Origin: Ignavibacteria bacterium
GTDB lineage: Bacteria; Bacteroidota; Ignavibacteria; UBA10030; F1-140-MAGs086
Length of the DNA: 40,685 bases
Reading direction: 5' to 3'
NCBI GenBank assembly: GCA_016873775.1
Contig: VGWC01000016.1
Location: 1 to 40,685, forward strand
Below, one piece after another: positions 2,105 through 39,052 of the stretch; position 1 is the stretch's first letter; each line of letters begins with the position of its first letter. The notes under the pieces were generated by a model. It was not told the origin of the DNA and did not search any database. It was given only the letters and a program-made list of their open reading frames with translations. Position numbers and translations under genes: made by a program.

Positions 2105-2118
2105 AGTAGTATAAAAGT

Positions 2119-2175
2119 ATAAAGTTCAAAAATCAAATGTCAAATAAATTTCAAATTCCTAAAATCCAAAACTGA
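2119..2175. repeat. Word-like repeat downstream of S23 gene
   Basis: The plus strand reads AAAGTTCAAA, then CAAATGTCAAAT, then AAATTTCAAATT, followed by a CCTAAAATCCAAAAC segment. The same three words occur in a different order and opposite orientation at 2537-2577, on the other side of the S23 gene. It fills the gap between the S23 stop (2177) and the next start (2104). Confidence 0.7.
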
Positions 2176-2176
2176 A

Positions 2177-2551
2177 CTATAATTTCTTTTTCAAAATGAT
2201 GGAAGAAAAAATCAGAGTGAGTTCGTGCGATTCTTTCCATAATGTTCTGCATTCGTCTTTTTTTGTTGGGTTTGCTTTAGCAATCATTCTTAACCAATGC
2301 ATTGTTTCTTTCGACTCTTTTTTGCATAAAGCGATTTTGTGATAAAAATCTTTTTTCGATTCAGCTCCATCGGCTTCCATATAATTTGCGCCGATACTTG
2401 TTGCAGAACGAACCACTTGATTTATCAATGGTTTATTCACCGATGTTTCCGGAATTGCCAAAACAAATTCAATAATATCTTCTCCAAATTTTGCTGTGCG
2501 TTCAGCTAAATCATATTTCTTTTCTTTAGAACTTTGGATTTGATTTGACAT
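2177..2551 (-). CDS. S23 / four-helix-bundle protein
   Basis: Belongs to the small four-helix-bundle family first seen as open frames in intervening sequences of 23S rRNA genes; the Avd accessory protein of diversity-generating retroelements has the same fold. The 124-aa length is typical. Family hallmarks are visible: PLINQVVRSATSIGANYMEA at residues ~40-60 and KKDFYHKIALCKKESKETMH at ~66-85, followed by a last helix ending in a lysine tail. No reverse transcriptase, template repeat or rRNA gene is nearby, so neither classic context applies. Its molecular role is unknown. The gene sits between two genes of the same strand, with repeat words on both sides, and its start codon (2551) lies inside the upstream repeat, so its first codons are repeat-derived. 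It looks like an inserted cassette. Confidence 0.9.
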   Translation of the reverse strand: MSNQIQSSKEKKYDLAERTAKFGEDIIEFVLAIPETSVNKPLINQVVRSATSIGANYMEADGAESKKDFYHKIALCKKESKETMHWLRMIAKANPTKKDECRTLWKESHELTLIFSSIILKKKL

Positions 2552-2577
2552 TTGAACTTTGTAATTTGAAATTTATC
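2537..2577. repeat. Word-like repeat upstream of S23 gene, inverted relative to the downstream copy
   Basis: Read on the minus strand this is AAATTTCAAATT, ACAAAGTTCAAA, ATGTCAAATC, running into the S23 start codon. It contains the words of the 2119-2175 copy in permuted order and opposite orientation. It occupies the whole 30-bp gap between the stop of the TPR gene (2582) and the S23 start. Confidence 0.7.
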
Positions 2578-7458: not shown

Positions 7459-8979
7459 CTATTTAAGTAAAAGCATTTTCTGTGTTCGAACGTTGTTTCC
7501 GACTTGCAAGCGGTAGAAATACACGCCACTCGGAATATCATTTGCGTTCCAAGGAATATTGTACGTTCCTGCTGCCAGTTTTTCGTTCACAAGTGTAGCG
7601 ATTTCTTTCCCAAGAACATCATATACTTTTAAGGAAACAAATCGGAAATCCAAAATCTGAAACCTGAAATTTGTTGTCGGATTAAACGGGTTCGGATAAT
7701 TTTGGTACAGAATAAAATCATTCGGCGTAGAAGTAAAATTCTCGCGAACATTATCAATTCCGCCCGCAAGAAATTCTCCGGTTTCAATATCTATAATTGC
7801 GTGGAAGTACAACGAAGTTCCATCTGATAACAACGCTTCATATTCACCAACCCAAACTACTTTTGTTGTATCCTGCGGATATATCCAAACAAAATTTCCG
7901 CCGAACAGTCTTCGGGAAACAACATTATACAGTTGACGAAATTCTTCCCCGCCATTATGCTCTACTACCCACATTGCGCTATCGCTATCAATAAAATTTT
8001 CCGGTATCGGTCGCGAATTTTGCGGAAACGGCGGTGGATTGGTTGTATCTACCATCATAAAGAACGACGATGCAAACACTGTTGTATAGAATTGCAATGT
8101 TGGCGAGAAAAACATATACATCCATCCAAACGAAGTACCGTCTAAATTTATCGTATCTCCATCTGATTGCGCAAATACATATCGTAACTGTTGGTCAGAA
8201 GCGTACTGTGATGCAAGAGTTTTCGCAGTATCAACAAACCCGGTTGCCGTTGTTAAATAAAATAATTGTCGCAATGTCATATTGACTCCATCGCGATTAT
8301 CTCCTTGAATCACGATACTATCCTGCACCCCGTCGTTATTCTCGTCGTAAAAACCGATGTAGTCGTCAAAGGGATCTAATTCACCGTCACCGTTTGCATC
8401 TTTTGCGCAAACGGGCCAATACGTTCCATCACGAAGATAATACGTAGTATACTCTCCCGTTGAATTGGTAATAACAACTGAACTGCGAGCATTTCCATAA
8501 TCTGAAAACAACGGTTTATCTAACAATGCAATAAATGCGCCCGAAACTTCACCTGCGTACGATACAATTCCCTTCACGACAAATTGCCCATGTTCCTGAG
8601 AAGTTGTATAATTTAATACGTACGGCATTGCCAACATTTCACCATTCAAACTACGCGCTCCTATTACAATCCATACATAATCCGTGTTCGCAGTGTGCGT
8701 TACTTCGATTGATATTGTTTGAAGATTTCCGCTGTACGTAACATTTCCCAACGTAATGGAATCTAGGGGGTCATGCGCAAGTAAATTTATCGGCAGTTGC
8801 AAATCGCCGAAGCGAGTATTCGTATCAATAGGCGATGAAAAGTTAAAACTTACGATTGTGGATAGTTGCACTTCTTGTTCGCCATCCACAGGGGTAGATG
8901 ACGTTATAACAAACTGCGCTTGCGTTTGTAAAGAAAATACAATAAAGAGAGTGAATATAAAATTCAATATTCGAAACAT
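7459..8979 (-). CDS. Secreted T9SS cargo protein with Ig-like domain and sorting domain
   Basis: An exported protein of about 506 aa of unknown activity. The start is placed at ATG 8979 (MFRILNFIFTLFIVFSLQTQ), which makes a normal signal peptide; the frame stays open 36 codons further without sense. After the signal comes a Big_5/SbsA-type Ig-like domain (STPVDGEQEVQLSTIVSFNF), then a Ca-binding dockerin/EF-hand-like loop pair (DANGDGELDPFDDY, DENNDGVQDS) and a beta-rich region. The last ~85 residues are a T9SS type A sorting domain (YQNYPNPFNPTT, VSLKVYDVLGKEIATL, SGVYFYRLQVG, QKMLLLK). The protein should therefore pass the outer membrane by type IX secretion and be anchored or released there. 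Codons between NPFNP and VSLKV consist of an interspersed repeat word (7636-7673). Confidence 0.88.
   Translation of the reverse strand: MFRILNFIFTLFIVFSLQTQAQFVITSSTPVDGEQEVQLSTIVSFNFSSPIDTNTRFGDLQLPINLLAHDPLDSITLGNVTYSGNLQTISIEVTHTANTDYVWIVIGARSLNGEMLAMPYVLNYTTSQEHGQFVVKGIVSYAGEVSGAFIALLDKPLFSDYGNARSSVVITNSTGEYTTYYLRDGTYWPVCAKDANGDGELDPFDDYIGFYDENNDGVQDSIVIQGDNRDGVNMTLRQLFYLTTATGFVDTAKTLASQYASDQQLRYVFAQSDGDTINLDGTSFGWMYMFFSPTLQFYTTVFASSFFMMVDTTNPPPFPQNSRPIPENFIDSDSAMWVVEHNGGEEFRQLYNVVSRRLFGGNFVWIYPQDTTKVVWVGEYEALLSDGTSLYFHAIIDIETGEFLAGGIDNVRENFTSTPNDFILYQNYPNPFNPTTNFRFQILDFRFVSLKVYDVLGKEIATLVNEKLAAGTYNIPWNANDIPSGVYFYRLQVGNNVRTQKMLLLK
7636..7673. repeat. Repeat word inside the T9SS sorting-domain coding sequence
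   Basis: The plus strand reads AAACAAATCGGAAATCC then AAAATCTGAAACCTGAAATT, a tandem of near-identical GAAAT/TGAAA words. On the minus strand it encodes FRFQILDFRFVS. The segment AAACAAATCGGAAAT matches 34235-34249 (AAACAAATCAGAAAT, one mismatch), which is not sorting-domain coding sequence. Confidence 0.65.
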
Positions 8980-26992: not shown

Positions 26993-27079
26993 AATAGAAC
27001 ACAGATGACGTCGATGAAACAGATTGTAACGGATTATATCAGCGAAAATCCGTTGAATCAGTTTCATCCGTGTTCTATT
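26993..27079. repeat. Palindromic repeat of the ATCCGTGTTC type
   Basis: The left part AATAGAACACAGATGA (26993-27008) and, after a short insertion, GATGAAACAGATTGTAACG are mirrored by CCGTTGAATCAGTTTCATC and TCATCCGTGTTCTATT at the right end. This gives a long, imperfect hairpin. Elements with words like GAACACGGATGA and ATCCGTGTTC are well known as interspersed repeats in several phyla. Confidence 0.75.
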
Positions 27080-27199: not shown

Positions 27200-27913
27200 A
27201 TGCCGCATCTCGAAAAACTCTCCGCCGTAATTTTTGATATGGATGGAACAATAACTCGCTCCAACGATTTGATTTTCGGTTCGTTCAATTGCGTTGCGAA
27301 AAAATATTTGCGCAAAACTTTTTCCCCGAAAGAAATCACCGCTCTCTTTGGTCCGGCAGAAGAAGGAGCGATTGAAAAACTCATCGGCAAAGAAAAACTT
27401 GCCGAAGCGATGCAGGATTTTTGGAATTTCTATCGCGAGAATCATTCGATATGTTCGCTGTACGATGGGATTATTGACTTGTTTGAATTTTTACGAGAGC
27501 ATAATATCAAAATCGGATTGTTCACGGGCAAAGGAAAAATTTCTACGCACATTTCGTTGCAGCAATTCTGCATTGAACATTATTTCGATTACATCGTAAC
27601 AGGACACGATGTAACAAAACACAAACCGAGCGGCGAAGGAATCGAAATTATTCTGCGCGAACTTTCGCTCGATAAAAACGAAACGCTGATGGTCGGCGAT
27701 GCAATTTCTGATATGAAAGCATCGGCGGAAGTTGGCGTACCGTGTGCTGTTGCATTGTGGGATTCGTATGCGTTGGAAGAAATTTTATTGCTTAATCCAG
27801 AATTGAAGTTTTTTTCGGTGAGTGAATTTTCAAATTGGTTGAAAGAAAATGTTTTGAAGCAATCAACACGTCATCCCGAACTTGTTTCGGGAACTTTTGT
27901 TCAATCAAAGTAG
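27200..27913 (+). CDS. HAD-family phosphatase (phosphoglycolate-phosphatase-like)
   Basis: Haloacid-dehalogenase-type hydrolase, 237 aa. Motif I is VIFDMDGTITRSN (nucleophile Asp13, acid Asp15), motif II is IGLFTGKGK, motif III Lys is in DVTKHKPSGEG and motif IV is MVGDAISDMKAS. A helical cap (~20-95) places it in the C1-cap group together with phosphoglycolate and pyrophosphate phosphatases; the substrate is not fixed. The enzyme proper ends near residue 220. The last ~17 residues (STRHPELVSGTFVQSK) are encoded by the left half of an interspersed palindromic repeat and are a likely recent tail. It is followed 29 bp later by the Gfo/Idh/MocA gene. Confidence 0.92.
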   Translation: MPHLEKLSAVIFDMDGTITRSNDLIFGSFNCVAKKYLRKTFSPKEITALFGPAEEGAIEKLIGKEKLAEAMQDFWNFYRENHSICSLYDGIIDLFEFLREHNIKIGLFTGKGKISTHISLQQFCIEHYFDYIVTGHDVTKHKPSGEGIEIILRELSLDKNETLMVGDAISDMKASAEVGVPCAVALWDSYALEEILLLNPELKFFSVSEFSNWLKENVLKQSTRHPELVSGTFVQSK

Positions 27914-27938
27914 ATGCTGAAACGAGTTCAGCATGACG
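27869..27938. repeat. CGTCAT-type palindromic repeat (RHPELVSG element)
   Basis: Bounded by CGTCAT (27869-27874) and ATGACG (27933-27938). It contains two hairpins: TCCCGAA/TTCGGGA (27874-27892) and TGCTGAA/TTCAGCA (27915-27933). This is the widespread REP-like element that, when translated, gives RHPELVSG or RHAELVSA. It overlaps the 3' end of the HAD gene and ends 5 bp before the next start codon. Confidence 0.85.
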
Positions 27939-27942
27939 AAAT

Positions 27943-28950
27943 ATGAGTAACAACAAAACAAATATCGCAGTTATTGGCGTTGGGCATCTTGGTTCATTAC
28001 ACGCAAAAATGCTTGCGGAAATTTCTTCGGCAAATTTCGTTGGTGTGTTTGATGTTGATGAACAAAAGCGAAATGACATTGCAATGAAATACAACGTTCG
28101 CGCATTTCCAAGTTTGAATGAGTTGTTCGAAACTGTGAATGCAGTAACGATTGCTGCAAATACACGATTTCATTTTGAAATTGCTAAACTTGCTTTGCAA
28201 AACGGAATTCATTGCTTCATTGAAAAACCAATTACGACAATGCCGAACGAAGCAGAAGAATTGATAACGCTCGCAAGAAAAAACAATTGCAAAATTCAAG
28301 TTGGACATATTGAGCGATTTAATCCCGCGATTCTTGCGATTGAAAAATACGATGTGAAGCCGATGTTTATTGAAGCGCATCGTTTGGCGCAATTCACTGC
28401 TCGCGGAGCCGATGTCGCCGTTGTGCTTGATTTGATGATTCATGACATTGATATAATTTTGAGTTTGGTGAAATCGGACGTTGCACAAATTGATGCGAAT
28501 GGCGTTGCGGTTGTTTCCGATTCAGTGGATATTGCGAACGCGCGCATCAAGTTTGAAAACGGATGTGTTGCAAACGTAACGGCGAGCAGAATTTCGCAGC
28601 AGAAAATGCGGAAGATGAGAATGTTTCAGCACGATGCGTATATCTCAGTAAATTTTTCGGAGAACAACGCGGAAGTATTTCGGCTTGTGGATGAACATTT
28701 TCAAATGCAATCGCGAATGATGAAACTCGGCGCGATTGATTCGGGAAAATATCAGCGTAACATTATTTTTGAACAACCAGAAATTCCGCAACTCAATCCG
28801 CTAAAAGTCGAGTTAGAAGAGTTTGTGAAATGCATTCAGCAAAACACCGAGCCGAAAGTTACTGCGGAAGAGGGAAAGCAAGCGTTGGTTGTTGCGAGTG
28901 AGATACTTTCGAGAATTGATGAACAACGTTTCGTGGTTCGTGAATCGTGA
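27943..28950 (+). CDS. Gfo/Idh/MocA-family oxidoreductase
   Basis: NAD(P)-dependent sugar or cyclitol dehydrogenase/reductase, 335 aa. The Rossmann motif is IAVIGVGHLGSLHAKML (~8-24); the EKP motif is in HCFIEKPITTMP (~96) and the C-terminal domain contains GHIERFNPAI and VLDLMIHDIDIILSL with the conserved histidine. The MIHDID type is common in dehydrogenases of UDP-amino-sugar or lipid A / cell-surface pathways in Bacteroidota, so a cell-envelope sugar is a fair guess. The last residues (RFVVRES) come from a TTCGTGAATCGTGAA repeat word, which supplies the stop codon. The gene sits between two interspersed repeats. Confidence 0.9.
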   Translation: MSNNKTNIAVIGVGHLGSLHAKMLAEISSANFVGVFDVDEQKRNDIAMKYNVRAFPSLNELFETVNAVTIAANTRFHFEIAKLALQNGIHCFIEKPITTMPNEAEELITLARKNNCKIQVGHIERFNPAILAIEKYDVKPMFIEAHRLAQFTARGADVAVVLDLMIHDIDIILSLVKSDVAQIDANGVAVVSDSVDIANARIKFENGCVANVTASRISQQKMRKMRMFQHDAYISVNFSENNAEVFRLVDEHFQMQSRMMKLGAIDSGKYQRNIIFEQPEIPQLNPLKVELEEFVKCIQQNTEPKVTAEEGKQALVVASEILSRIDEQRFVVRES

Positions 28951-28973
28951 ACGGCAATCTGTTAATTGTTATT

Positions 28974-29040
28974 AGTAATTAGTCATTTGTCATTCGTAAA
29001 TTGAAAAACACTAATGACCAATTACAAATGACTAATGACT
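28974..29040. repeat. Palindromic interspersed repeat (AATTAGTCATT family)
   Basis: The arms AGTAATTAGTCATTTGTC (from 28974) and the mirror ending ACAAATGACTAATGACT (to 29040) pair over 24 positions with three mismatches, leaving a short A-rich loop. The word TAATTAGTCATT(C/T)GT is shared with 12551-12565. It lies between the dehydrogenase and the CCA-adding enzyme. Confidence 0.8.
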
Positions 29041-30492: not shown

Positions 30493-30501
30493 TGTTTTGT
30501 T

Positions 30502-30560
30502 TCACGCAAAGCCGCAAAGATGCAAAGAAAATTATTTTGCGACTCTGCGTCTTTGCGTGA
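30502..30560. repeat. Palindromic repeat of the TCACGCAAAG type
   Basis: Inverted repeat TCACGCAAAG (30502-30511) and CTTTGCGTGA (30551-30560), with internal GCAAAG copies and CTCTGCGT before the right arm. Elements built from CTCTGCGTCTTTGCGTGA words are known interspersed repeats. It lies just past the cca stop; the related words CTCTGCGTCTTTG recur at 38821-38833. Confidence 0.8.
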
Positions 30561-30632
30561 GACAATAACTGCTTGCAACCTTTTTACCAATTTTAGTATC
30601 TAATACATTTATTATTCAAATCAGTTATACCA

Positions 30633-34139: not shown

Positions 34140-34265
34140 ATGACGAAAGAAGAACTACAAGAACGGGGAAAACAAATGGCTTTACGGGTGATTCGATTAG
34201 CAGAATCCTTCCCGAAAAGAAAAACAGCAACGCCAAACAAATCAGAAATTGGCAATCGGAAATAG
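34140..34265 (+). pseudogene. Deleted S23/four-helix-bundle gene remnant
   Basis: A 41-codon frame from ATG 34140 encodes MTKEELQERGKQMALRVIRL then AESFPKRKTA, which is the standard N-terminus of S23-type four-helix-bundle proteins. The family core that should follow (RSGTSVGANYRAACRA type) is missing. Instead the frame runs straight into TPNKSEIGNRK, encoded by the repeat word at 34235-34266, and stops. It therefore looks like an S23 gene with its middle deleted. It sits between the ATPase and permease genes of an exporter where an insertion is not expected. The remnant is probably non-functional, though it may still be translated within the operon. Confidence 0.72.
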
Positions 34266-34266
34266 G
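34235..34266. repeat. Repeat word AAACAAATCAGAAATTGGCA next to S23 remnant
   Basis: A string of GAAAT/ATCGGAAAT words that supplies the last codons and stop of the S23 remnant and ends 3 bp before the permease start. AATCGGAAAT (34254-34263) and AAACAAATC(A/G)GAAAT (34235-34249) both recur in the T9SS sorting-domain word at 7635-7649. Confidence 0.65.
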
Positions 34267-34268
34267 AA

Positions 34269-35486
34269 ATGAAACTCTGGGAAATCACCGAAGGGCTCCG
34301 CATTGCACTGAAATCAATTAAAGCAAATAAAATGCGCGCAATTCTTACGACGTTAGGAATTGTTATCGGCATTGTTTCCGTTACGCTTATGGCAACCGCA
34401 ATCGAAGGAATGAACCGCGCTTTTTCCGATAATATATCGAAGATGGGTTCCAATGTTCTGTATATCCAAAAATCTCCATGGTTTATTGGCGAAGAATGGT
34501 GGCGATTACGAAACAGAAAAGATTTAACACTGCAACAAGCGAACGCATTGAAGCGACAAACAAAATTATGTTCCATCGTTTCGCCATCCGCAGGATTACG
34601 CGGTGTTATTCAAACCGGAGACAAACGCGTGGATGATATCGTCGTCAACGGTGTTGACGAGAACTTTGATAAAGTCGGTTTTGCGGAACCTTCCGACGGG
34701 AGATTCCTTTCGATGGATGATACAGAAAATGGAAGACCGGTTGTCGTTCTCAGTCAAGATATTTCAGAAAAATTATTTCCTCACGAAGAACCGCTTGGAA
34801 AAAGCGTGAAGATCCGCGGTAAAACATTCATCGTTATTGGTTTAAATGCAAAGCAGGGAAATTTTTTGGGAATGAGTCTCGATAACCGTGTGTTTATTCC
34901 GATAAAAAATTTTATTGACCTATATGGAAAGCAAGTGTTGTTCACTATCAATGCAAAAGTTGCCGATGGTGTAAACATTGAAGACGCAAAAGAAGAAGTG
35001 CGCGGAATAATGAGAAAAGTCCGACATCTGAAACCAGCGGAAGAAGACGATTTTGCCATCAATCAACAGGAACTTTTGCAACGACAATTCGATAATATCT
35101 TTTCTGTGATTTACGGAATTGGATTGTTTATTACGGGAATGTCCTTGTTCGTTGGCGCAATCGGAATAATGAATATTATGTTTGTTTCCGTAACGGAACG
35201 CACGAAAGAAATCGGAATAAGAAAAGCGTTGGGCGCAAAACGTCGAACGATACTTTTACAATTTCTGATTGAAGCGGCGGCAATTTGTTTAATCGGCGGT
35301 CTTATCGGACTTGCCATTGCAACACCATTAAGTTTTCTCATTGATTCGTTTCTTCCAACATCTATGCCTCTTTCCATCGTTGTCGTTTCACTTTTAATGT
35401 CCATCGTTGTCGGTTTAATTTCCGGATTGCTTCCTGCTTATCGCGCGGCTAAATTAGACCCGGTGGATGCCTTGCGGTATGAATAA
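34269..35486 (+). CDS. MacB-type ABC transporter permease 1
   Basis: Inner-membrane permease of 405 aa. The first helix (~20-45, MRAILTTLGIVIGIVSVTLM) is followed by a large periplasmic MacB_PCD domain (~46-275) and three C-terminal FtsX helices (LFITGMSLFVGAIGIMNIMF, AICLIGGLIGLAIATPLSFL, SIVVVSLLMSIVVGLISGLL). The coupling region is SVTERTKEIGIRKALGAKRR, which contacts the ATPase, and the end is AAKLDPVDALRYE. It is similar in plan to the next gene but clearly not a recent copy. The gene begins 3 bp after a repeat word that ends the S23 remnant, so its ribosome-binding region may be altered by that insertion. Confidence 0.94.
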   Translation: MKLWEITEGLRIALKSIKANKMRAILTTLGIVIGIVSVTLMATAIEGMNRAFSDNISKMGSNVLYIQKSPWFIGEEWWRLRNRKDLTLQQANALKRQTKLCSIVSPSAGLRGVIQTGDKRVDDIVVNGVDENFDKVGFAEPSDGRFLSMDDTENGRPVVVLSQDISEKLFPHEEPLGKSVKIRGKTFIVIGLNAKQGNFLGMSLDNRVFIPIKNFIDLYGKQVLFTINAKVADGVNIEDAKEEVRGIMRKVRHLKPAEEDDFAINQQELLQRQFDNIFSVIYGIGLFITGMSLFVGAIGIMNIMFVSVTERTKEIGIRKALGAKRRTILLQFLIEAAAICLIGGLIGLAIATPLSFLIDSFLPTSMPLSIVVVSLLMSIVVGLISGLLPAYRAAKLDPVDALRYE

Positions 35487-37353: not shown

Positions 37354-38619
37354 TTATTTCACCAGCACTAATTTTTTCACGTCAACAAAAACTTCTGATT
37401 CGCCTGTTATTTCGATACGATAAAAATACACGCCGCTCGGCAAATTCATTGCGTCAAATTCTACTTCGTGTTCTCCTTCATCCATTTCTTCATTTTGTAT
37501 AAGCGTTGCTACTTCTCTTCCGAGAACATCAAAAACTTTTAAGGACACAATACTATTCACGATTAACGAATAACGAATCACGGTTAACGGATTGAAGGGA
37601 TTTGGGTGGTTTTGAAAAAGAGAAATTTCCGACGGAAAATTATTTTCTGTCATGGTAACCGATGTAGGAATAATTTCTGAAGAACGGAGAAGCGTTCCTT
37701 GCGAACCGCTGACATAATACGTAACAAGTGAATCAACTTTTGTAAAGGTGATGGTGAACAATGCCGCAGAAGAGCCGGAATTCTGCATCTCCCACGATGT
37801 TCCTGTATTTGTCGTCTTGAAAATAAATCCCGGTGTTCCAACTGCATAACCGATACTATCCGTTGAAAACGTTACCGAATGCAACAAAGCGTCAAACAGC
37901 GAGGTAGTTGACCACGATGTTCCTCCGTCCGTGGTTTTCAAAACTTTTCCGTAATCGCCAACAACGTAACCGACATTCTCATTCCGGAAATGCGCGCCGA
38001 GAAAAATATCATCATTCGTTTCGGAATGTATTTGCGACCACGTTGTTCCTCCGTTGATTGTCTTAAAAATTTTTCCTCCATTGCCGCAAGCAAAACCAAC
38101 ATTCACATTTACAAAGGAAAGCGCGTATAACCCCACAGTGATACCTGAATATTGTCCAAACCACGTCGCTCCGCCATTCGTGGTTTTGTACATCGGTGAA
38201 CCTCCAATCCCGCACATATAGCCAATACTGTCATTGAGAAATGTTATCCCCGTGAAAATATATGTTTGCCCAATGGAATTAGAAGTCCAATTCATTCCAC
38301 CATTAGTAGTTACCAAAAATCTGCTGTTATATCCCGCCGCAAAACCTTTATTTGCGTCGAGAAAATACACTGCCATTAACTCATCATTTATTCCTGTCGG
38401 TTGAATCGTCCACGTGTTTCCTGTATTCGTTGTTTTTATTATCGTTCCCTGCTTTCCAACTGCGAAACCGATGTGCATTGAATCCGTGTGAGGAAAAAAT
38501 ACCGAATTTATTCCTTGAGAAGTTCCGGAGTTTAACGTTACCCATTGTGAATAACTCAAGGGGGAAATGACAAATGTAAGAATGAGAAAAACAAAAAATT
38601 GTGTTGTGTGCTTATTCAT
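37354..38619 (-). CDS. Secreted Ycf48/BNR-like beta-propeller protein with T9SS sorting domain
   Basis: A 421-aa exported protein. A signal peptide (FFVFLILTFVISPLSYS) is followed by about seven repeats of the photosystem-assembly Ycf48/BNR type, each with GxAxGxxGxIxKTTxxGxxW: GFAVGKQGTIIKTTNTGNTW, GYMCGIGGSPMYKTTNGGAT, GFACGNGGKIFKTINGGTTW, GYVVGDYGKVLKTTDGGTSW. These should form a beta-propeller. The last ~90 residues are a T9SS type A sorting domain (FQNHPNPFNPLT, VSLKVFDVLGREVATL, SGVYFYRIEI, VKKLVLVK). It is therefore secreted through the outer membrane. In this lineage such proteins have no assigned function despite the Ycf48 name. A repeat word occupies the codons between NPFNP and VSLKV (37555-37587). 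Confidence 0.9.
   Translation of the reverse strand: MNKHTTQFFVFLILTFVISPLSYSQWVTLNSGTSQGINSVFFPHTDSMHIGFAVGKQGTIIKTTNTGNTWTIQPTGINDELMAVYFLDANKGFAAGYNSRFLVTTNGGMNWTSNSIGQTYIFTGITFLNDSIGYMCGIGGSPMYKTTNGGATWFGQYSGITVGLYALSFVNVNVGFACGNGGKIFKTINGGTTWSQIHSETNDDIFLGAHFRNENVGYVVGDYGKVLKTTDGGTSWSTTSLFDALLHSVTFSTDSIGYAVGTPGFIFKTTNTGTSWEMQNSGSSAALFTITFTKVDSLVTYYVSGSQGTLLRSSEIIPTSVTMTENNFPSEISLFQNHPNPFNPLTVIRYSLIVNSIVSLKVFDVLGREVATLIQNEEMDEGEHEVEFDAMNLPSGVYFYRIEITGESEVFVDVKKLVLVK
37555..37587. repeat. Repeat word inside the second T9SS sorting-domain coding sequence
   Basis: The plus strand reads TTCACGATTAACGAATAACG then AATCACGGTTAAC. This is the TTCACGAATCACG word family seen between genes at 25882-25900 and 28935-28955. 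On the minus strand it encodes VIRYSLIVNS. It occupies the same alignment position as the unrelated word at 7636-7673 in the other T9SS gene. Confidence 0.55.
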
Positions 38620-38848: not shown

Positions 38849-39052
38849 TCACTTCATCAAAATCATTTTCTTCGTTTCTGTTTTTCCTCCAACGGATAAA
38901 CGATAGAAATACATTCCGCTCGAAAATTTTTCTGCATTCCATTGCACAGAATAATTTTTCGCAAGTAATCCAATAAAAGTATAGTTTCCGTTGACATCAG
39001 TTAACGCAGAATCCGTTTTATCATCCGAAAGATACATACGCCAGTTTTGCAC
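38849..39052 (-). pseudogene. Remnant of a T9SS cargo gene with internal deletion
   Basis: A 67-codon frame (GTG at 39052; open ~12 codons further as DETETG) joins two pieces that are normally far apart. VQNWRMYLSDDKTDSALTDV plus NGNYTFIGLL is an SdrD/Cna-B-like domain. VQWNAEKFSSGMYFYRLSVG plus KTETKKMILMK is the last third of a T9SS sorting domain. The NPFNP and VSLKVYDVLG parts are missing, so a deletion has fused the pieces in frame. There is no signal peptide; upstream sequence is a different pseudogene. Not expected to be secreted or functional. Confidence 0.7.

Follow-up and report, generated by a model that had tools for sequence, protein, structure and literature searches.

Two T9SS sorting domains encoded on this stretch of DNA carry, at the same place, equally long segments written in different repeat words, which raises the question of where such words come from and why they are found inside a protein domain. 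The window, i.e., the whole stretch of 40,685 nucleotides analyzed here, is contig C16 of an Ignavibacteria assembly of 2.54 Mb that is 97.7% complete, of which 1.06 Mb was taken in stretches for analysis; this and the genomes compared with it are metagenome assemblies. The two genes and the segments in question, hereafter slots, are as follows:

7459..8979, minus strand: T9SS type A cargo protein of 506 aa with a Big_5 domain and a C-terminal sorting domain (Pfam PF18962, PF13205; TIGR04183, 43.5 bits)
7639..7677, minus strand: heptad-encoded slot TTNFRFQILDFRF, 13 residues between NPFNP and VSLKV
37354..38619, minus strand: second T9SS cargo protein of 421 aa with Ycf48-like repeats (Pfam; TIGR04183, 33.7 bits)
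37549..37587, minus strand: slot LTVIRYSLIVNSI, written in GTTATTC-type heptads, 13 residues between NPFNP and VSLKV

Both TIGR04183 scores exceed the curated cut-off of 23 and the match lies at the C terminus, so both proteins are members of the family. The first-pass annotation, which had described both as T9SS proteins whose slots are equal in length and come from different word families, was correct on each of these points, and several word families occupy the slot within one genome. It had read the first slot as a set of GAAAT/CTGAAA words; these are indeed repeat words, but it overlooked their actual form, a degenerate heptamer array AAATCNG of five units (on the plus strand AAATCGG, AAATCCA, AAATCTG, AAACCTG and AAATTTG). 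About a dozen further sorting domains of this genome, as well as intergenic arrays, contain the word of the second slot. In the predicted structure of the sorting domain (pLDDT 88, seven strands), the slot includes the β-strand that had been proposed (24-31) and, in addition, the turn 32-34 and the start of the strand 35-42. Fold matches include the T9SS structures 8glk, 8qb1 and PorZ 5m11, but their E-values are modest, between 1e-3 and 2e-2, and similar scores are reached by other Ig-like folds. Directly upstream of the gene at 37354-38619, the window also holds the remnant of a third sorting domain (38861-39019), a C-terminal half with a 75-aa open frame and without the slot.

The genome encodes 103 T9SS sorting domains. 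Slot statistics were computed on the 78 domains without a palindrome (described below), with synonymous-codon shuffles that preserve the protein serving as the null. DNA identity at lag 7 is 0.375 in these slots vs 0.301 in the shuffles (z 13.6), and no excess was detected in the 78 domains at lags 5, 6, 8 and 9 or in the segments before and after the slot. In a set of 108 sorting domains from other genomes, retrieved with a query that omitted the slot, the corresponding values are 0.390 and 0.323 (z 11.5); lag 7 is null in three further segments of these domains, and a smaller slot excess is seen at lag 8 (z 4.4). The named relatives, retrieved with the downstream half of the sorting domain as the query, are mostly Ignavibacteria, Melioribacteraceae and Chlorobi-type metagenome genomes. 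The best HMM matches across the phylum were unusable as a test of range, being biased toward consensus slots. After removal of similar slots, 16/58 slots of the own genome are individually significant at 0.05 vs 2/58 control segments; the counts are 9/50 vs 4 in the genome of a sister species (G001, used for the ortholog, paralog and word-matching comparisons) and 17/73 vs 8 in other genomes. From these counts, roughly a quarter of the non-redundant slots, rather than all of them, are written in heptads. It could be argued that an amphipathic strand in AT-rich codons merely looks periodic, and the alternating residue pattern does leave some lag-7 identity in the synonymous shuffles (0.30). The observed 0.375, however, stands far above that level, the own-genome lags 6, 8 and 9 are null and the result is repeated in a second set of genomes; barring a codon-context effect specific to lag 7, the codon-shuffle test refutes such a protein-level constraint, which we regard as very improbable.

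Several heptad families fill the slots of this genome, among them GTTATTC (VIRYSL..., about 13 domains), CACTATC (TIHYALST), AGTTACG (VISYELRVTSF) and TTTCAGA (NFRFQI, DFRFQI). In about 20 further sorting domains the slot is encoded by the palindrome GTAGGGGCAATTCATGAATTGCCCYTAC (PVGAIHELPLQ) and is six residues longer. This palindrome was considered as an intergenic REP and ruled out: in the sampled 1.06 Mb it was found in sorting domains and nowhere else, so its spread here went through copying of the domain. About 20 genes with no other relationship carry the PVGAIHELPLQ module and its palindrome in nearly identical form, which indicates a recent spread of the sorting domain itself, and G001 versions of the palindrome show compensatory changes (GCGATTCATGAATCGC, L309, L281). 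In the stretches L133-L212, the place of the slot also holds peptides that resemble intergenic repeats, namely PPSPFYKKGERGG (L163, L180), PGQARND (L187), SSPHALSGD (L171), SGRDLAKSGR (L139) and a VGTDSYTSL palindrome (L179), and L128 has VGTGHVPSL; the lengths of the inserts there vary.

Heptad arrays are also abundant outside sorting domains. About 100 kb of intergenic DNA contains 36 arrays of period 7 vs 0.05 under a first-order Markov null, and 0 or 1 array for each of the periods 5, 6 and 8 to 12. The exact tandem heptads fall into 34 classes in 95 kb of intergenic DNA rather than into one or a few fixed words. Within 70 non-domain arrays, mismatches between units cluster at the same one or two heptad positions (z 11.5; e.g., AGTTNCN, GTCATTN), so that an array consists of a fixed core with wobble letters; most of these arrays lie in non-coding DNA. 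One such locus in the window is an inverted pair:

28959..29039, no strand assigned: two intergenic heptad arrays, inverted, GTTATTAGTAATTAGTCATT... / ...CCAATTACAAATGACTAATGAC, with no gene in between (inverted-repeat and array search)

Other repeats of the window include an intergenic inverted repeat at 30497-30565 with GCGTCTTTGCGTGAG, of which the 14-mer GCGTCTTTGCGTGA was found 9 times in the sampled intergenic DNA, and another at 26993-27079, AATAGAACACAGATGAC.../...CCGTGTTCTATT, whose related AATAGAACACGGAT words recur intergenically. At 27870-28094, a HAD-like gene ends in HPELVSG/HAELVSAS peptides, which the opposite strand also encodes; here a widespread intergenic 'HPELVSGS' repeat appears to extend the gene in frame.

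Do slots and arrays share their words? Plain sharing of k-mers with intergenic DNA was dropped as a test, since it gave enrichment along the entire domain, NPFNP included, because 'intergenic' stretches contain remnants of the domain; it was replaced by comparison with the 70 arrays shown to be outside domains. Against these, 12-mers are shared by the slots of 17/78 domains vs 3.3 in synonymous shuffles, and by 2 domains before the slot, 0 after it and 1 at the end. Thus, the words do occur outside sorting domains, as had been claimed, and the expectation that the slot would be enriched in them over other parts of the domain was borne out. Letter-swapped arrays failed as a control, as the A<->T swap converts GTTATTC to its own reverse complement; therefore, only reversed and G<->C controls count. 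Reversed arrays, in which heptad periodicity is preserved, still match 9 own slots; in the comparison across genomes, own slots match own arrays in 16/73 cases, reversed arrays in 8 and G001 arrays in 5. Part of the word-matching signal is therefore generic. Its specific part stands out best in the sister genome, in which 17/84 slots match G001 arrays and 0/84 match reversed ones. Exact tandem heptads proved too few to serve as a test, only 1/6 slot classes recurring in intergenic DNA (p 0.22), and an exact donor array was identified for no slot.

Heptad arrays also surround genes for a four-helix-bundle protein, the 23S rRNA IVP family (TIGR02436; PF05635), of which the genome has 12, one at a contig end. 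The window contains an intact copy and a relic:

2177..2551, minus strand: intact four-helix-bundle gene, 23S rRNA-intervening-sequence protein family (PF05635, 6.2e-15; TIGR02436, 76.5 bits)
2114..2163, plus strand: heptad array, one of two inverted arms that flank this gene (inverted repeat I1; flank lag-7 signal)
2525..2574, plus strand: heptad array, second arm of the inverted pair (inverted repeat I1; lag-7 signal)
34140..34262, plus strand: relic of a four-helix-bundle gene, MTKEELQERGKQMALRVIRLAESFPK... (58% identity over 26 aa to an intact copy in L100; phmmer 1e-5, blastp 9e-5)
34238..34270, plus strand: degenerate heptad run AATCAGA AATTGGC AATCGGA AATAGGA at the 3' end of the relic (sequence reading, alignment)

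The relic has no Pfam or NCBIfam match, being too short. Its end is the place (34235-34250) to which the first slot had been matched at 15 of 16 positions as an example of a word outside sorting-domain genes: the match is actually 14/16, the only one in the window at two or fewer mismatches besides the slot itself, and it does lie outside sorting domains, but at the end of a truncated gene. Of the 11 scorable four-helix-bundle genes, ten are flanked on at least one side by a heptad array according to the lag-7 measure; the remaining one has shared inverted 8-mers. The arrays flanking a gene are mutually inverted, and every element has its own word. In the own genome 18/24 flanks of these genes are above threshold vs 1/76 distant flanks; across the phylum the signal is weaker, with 17/58 flanks of 29 further genes over threshold and 12/58 at lag 8. 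An Rfam search detected no rRNA in the window, which places the window copy, and that copy only, outside a 23S rRNA gene.

Arrays are also found in frame in unrelated proteins. They occur in IleRS (two sites), PNP, LolCE, exopolyphosphatase (Ppx) and methionine synthase (MetH), mostly as hairpins, that is, as array, loop and inverted array; alanyl-tRNA synthetase (AlaRS) has a short in-frame heptad run, and the N termini of NadD and TrpB are extended by heptad arrays. For the IleRS, PNP and exopolyphosphatase inserts, the site is empty in most order-level relatives. The sorting-domain slot, unlike these hairpins, is a single arm. Given the arrays in tRNA synthetases, PNP and other cytoplasmic enzymes, the sorting domain is just one of several hosts that tolerate them.

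Comparison with the sister species shows that the word at a given place can differ between the two genomes. Seven orthologous places are comparable (flanks 69-90% identical in DNA); six hold a heptad array of a different word, and in the remaining one the array is absent from the sister species. The IleRS insert is 65% identical (shuffled background 50%) between flanks that are 87-89% identical, with a length of 75 vs 72 nt, and the loop GTTTGGGAAA is retained between two rewritten arms; the same site carries yet other words in two more distant families. The PNP insert is 87 nt in both species and 57% identical (background 49%), with flanks at 83-85%. For sorting domains, orthologs of the sister genome were rejected as proof of a slot-only swap, since the entire domain is often exchanged between genes, and paralog pairs were therefore used. 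In the G001 paralogs L288/L326, the 90 nt upstream are 79% identical and the downstream part 88%, while the slots of equal length, VTVISYSLLVNSI and TTTIRFEVEGLGL, are 51% identical against a background of 54%; this is the only pair with both flanks clearly conserved around a changed slot of equal length. A second G001 pair, L229/L308, has tails that are 93% identical and different slots, at background identity. Independent insertion at the same spot is possible case by case; loop and length being kept, the alignments speak for replacement. The best reading of these sequences is that dispersed heptad repeats linked to IVP elements would be copied between sites and that the first hairpin of the sorting domain would tolerate them.

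Dispersed heptamers, in-frame repeat elements and IVP elements are already known kinds of DNA. The STRR of cyanobacteria are dispersed heptanucleotide direct repeats, and the 36 intergenic arrays found here, with exact 7-nt tandem units above chance, resemble them and the TAACTGA repeats. The latter are dispersed intergenic tandem heptamers of Beggiatoaceae that are also reported for five Bacteroidetes, and it was pointed out that such repeats, if translated, could form β-sheets (PMC4679880). A single fixed word dominates the TAACTGA repeats, whereas many degenerate words with a fixed core and wobble are present here, which form inverted pairs and also lie in frame within genes. The Rickettsia palindromic elements (RPEs) are repeats that have entered unrelated protein genes in frame, the added loop being tolerated by the protein (PMC10969869, citing Ogata et al. 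2000, 2002). The inserts in IleRS, PNP and Ppx are alike in being in frame in unrelated conserved genes with empty sites in relatives. RPEs, however, are palindromes of about 150 bp with one consensus per family, while the present arrays have 7-bp units and many words per genome, with different copies carrying different words; at a fixed site one word gives way to another, and in the sorting domain codons are replaced by a single arm with no change in length. The 23S rRNA IVS of Coxiella combines the same protein family with inverted repeats and with tandem GACAGAT heptamers in variable number before the gene (PMC4990558). The present elements share the PF05635/TIGR02436 reading frame between inverted repeats; they differ in that the window copy is free-standing and in that the 12 genes of one genome each have their own word. 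The sorting domains themselves belong to the T9SS type A family (TIGR04183, PF18962) and differ from it in the repeat words that encode the first strand and turn in about a quarter of non-redundant slots. A search of the open literature returned no earlier account of T9SS sorting domains that contain heptad words, of free-standing IVP genes flanked by heptad arrays across Bacteroidota, or of fixed sites at which one word had replaced another.

Taken as a whole, the explanation that we consider probable is that the genome has a dispersed pool of degenerate tandem arrays with 7-bp units. Typically these form inverted pairs with a four-helix-bundle gene in between, or hairpins without a gene, and their copies would land in frame inside genes whose protein tolerates them. 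This explanation builds on the observed periodicity beyond codon choice, word sharing, slot-only difference between paralogs, hairpins at sites that are empty in relatives and differing orthologous words. The commonest in-frame place would be the first β-strand and turn of the T9SS C-terminal sorting domain, because there are about 100 such domains per genome, only an alternating hydrophobic pattern is needed, and a stop-free strand of the word supplies it. The source of new words would probably be other arrays within the genome, copied through template switching, ectopic conversion or conversion between paralogous domains; the four-helix-bundle elements may have been the original carriers. 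Either ectopic conversion or template switching at hairpins would be a suitable copying route. Genes certainly do exchange whole sorting domains, which may contribute, since conversion between paralogous domains could spread slot words without an intergenic donor. An ordinary reading is that of selfish repeats filtered by selection, with no dedicated process. A more far-reaching version, in which a genome-wide process rewrites arrays in concert at fixed positions (in essential genes and in both hairpin arms) from a shared word pool, perhaps with IVP proteins as agents, and so diversifies the sorting domains of secreted proteins, is possible but doubtful.

Conversion between paralogs could also be the sole process, with short tracts anchored in NPFNP and VSLKV shuffling slots among the roughly 100 domains and the intergenic likeness being secondary. 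Sorting domains do exchange between genes, one word (VIRYSL) recurs in about 13 domains, and the palindrome-derived VGAIHELPLQ of about 20 domains is here confined to them; yet this leaves the heptads in intergenic DNA, IVP flanks and housekeeping genes unexplained, as well as the word replacement outside the family in IleRS and PNP, and we hold it unlikely. Slippage in situ, in which slot heptads arise locally, selection restores the length and the likeness to intergenic arrays merely reflects two AT-rich slippage products, appears less likely still. The sharing with arrays of the own genome exceeds reversed controls (17 vs 0 in G001), even if some slots are matched by reversed arrays too; the concentration of variation at fixed heptad positions (z 11.5) is what copying between neighboring units would give, but orthologous words change whole and in both hairpin arms at nearly constant length (75 vs 72 and 87 vs 87 nt), for which stepwise slippage is an unlikely source, and the other periods that slippage should also produce are almost absent. 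Rewriting of words at fixed sites recalls diversity-generating retroelements, whose Avd protein belongs to the same four-helix-bundle superfamily, so that the IVP-like protein could be pictured as an Avd-like helper in rewriting the slot. No reverse transcriptase (PF00078) was detected in the 97.7%-complete own genome, however, only 2/13 genomes searched have one, and informally no adenine-specific pattern was noticed, which makes this rival highly improbable.

The original observation is thereby confirmed as real and larger than stated, and its interpretation is partly supported. The suggestion that a mobile or copied word supplies interchangeable strands agrees with the slot-only replacement between paralogs; a device serving secreted proteins is unsupported, because the same arrays also flank four-helix-bundle genes, lie in intergenic DNA and are found in frame in cytoplasmic enzymes.

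The heptad pool connects dispersed heptamer repeats, orphan four-helix-bundle (23S rRNA IVP) genes and protein evolution, which are usually separate topics, and provides a clear bacterial case in which a segment of a functional domain is encoded by repeat DNA. Word turnover at a fixed place resembles that of eukaryotic satellite DNA. There is also reason for caution, as the stretch of the T9SS tag that varies most in these lineages is a reflection of repeat DNA and not of the function of the cargo.
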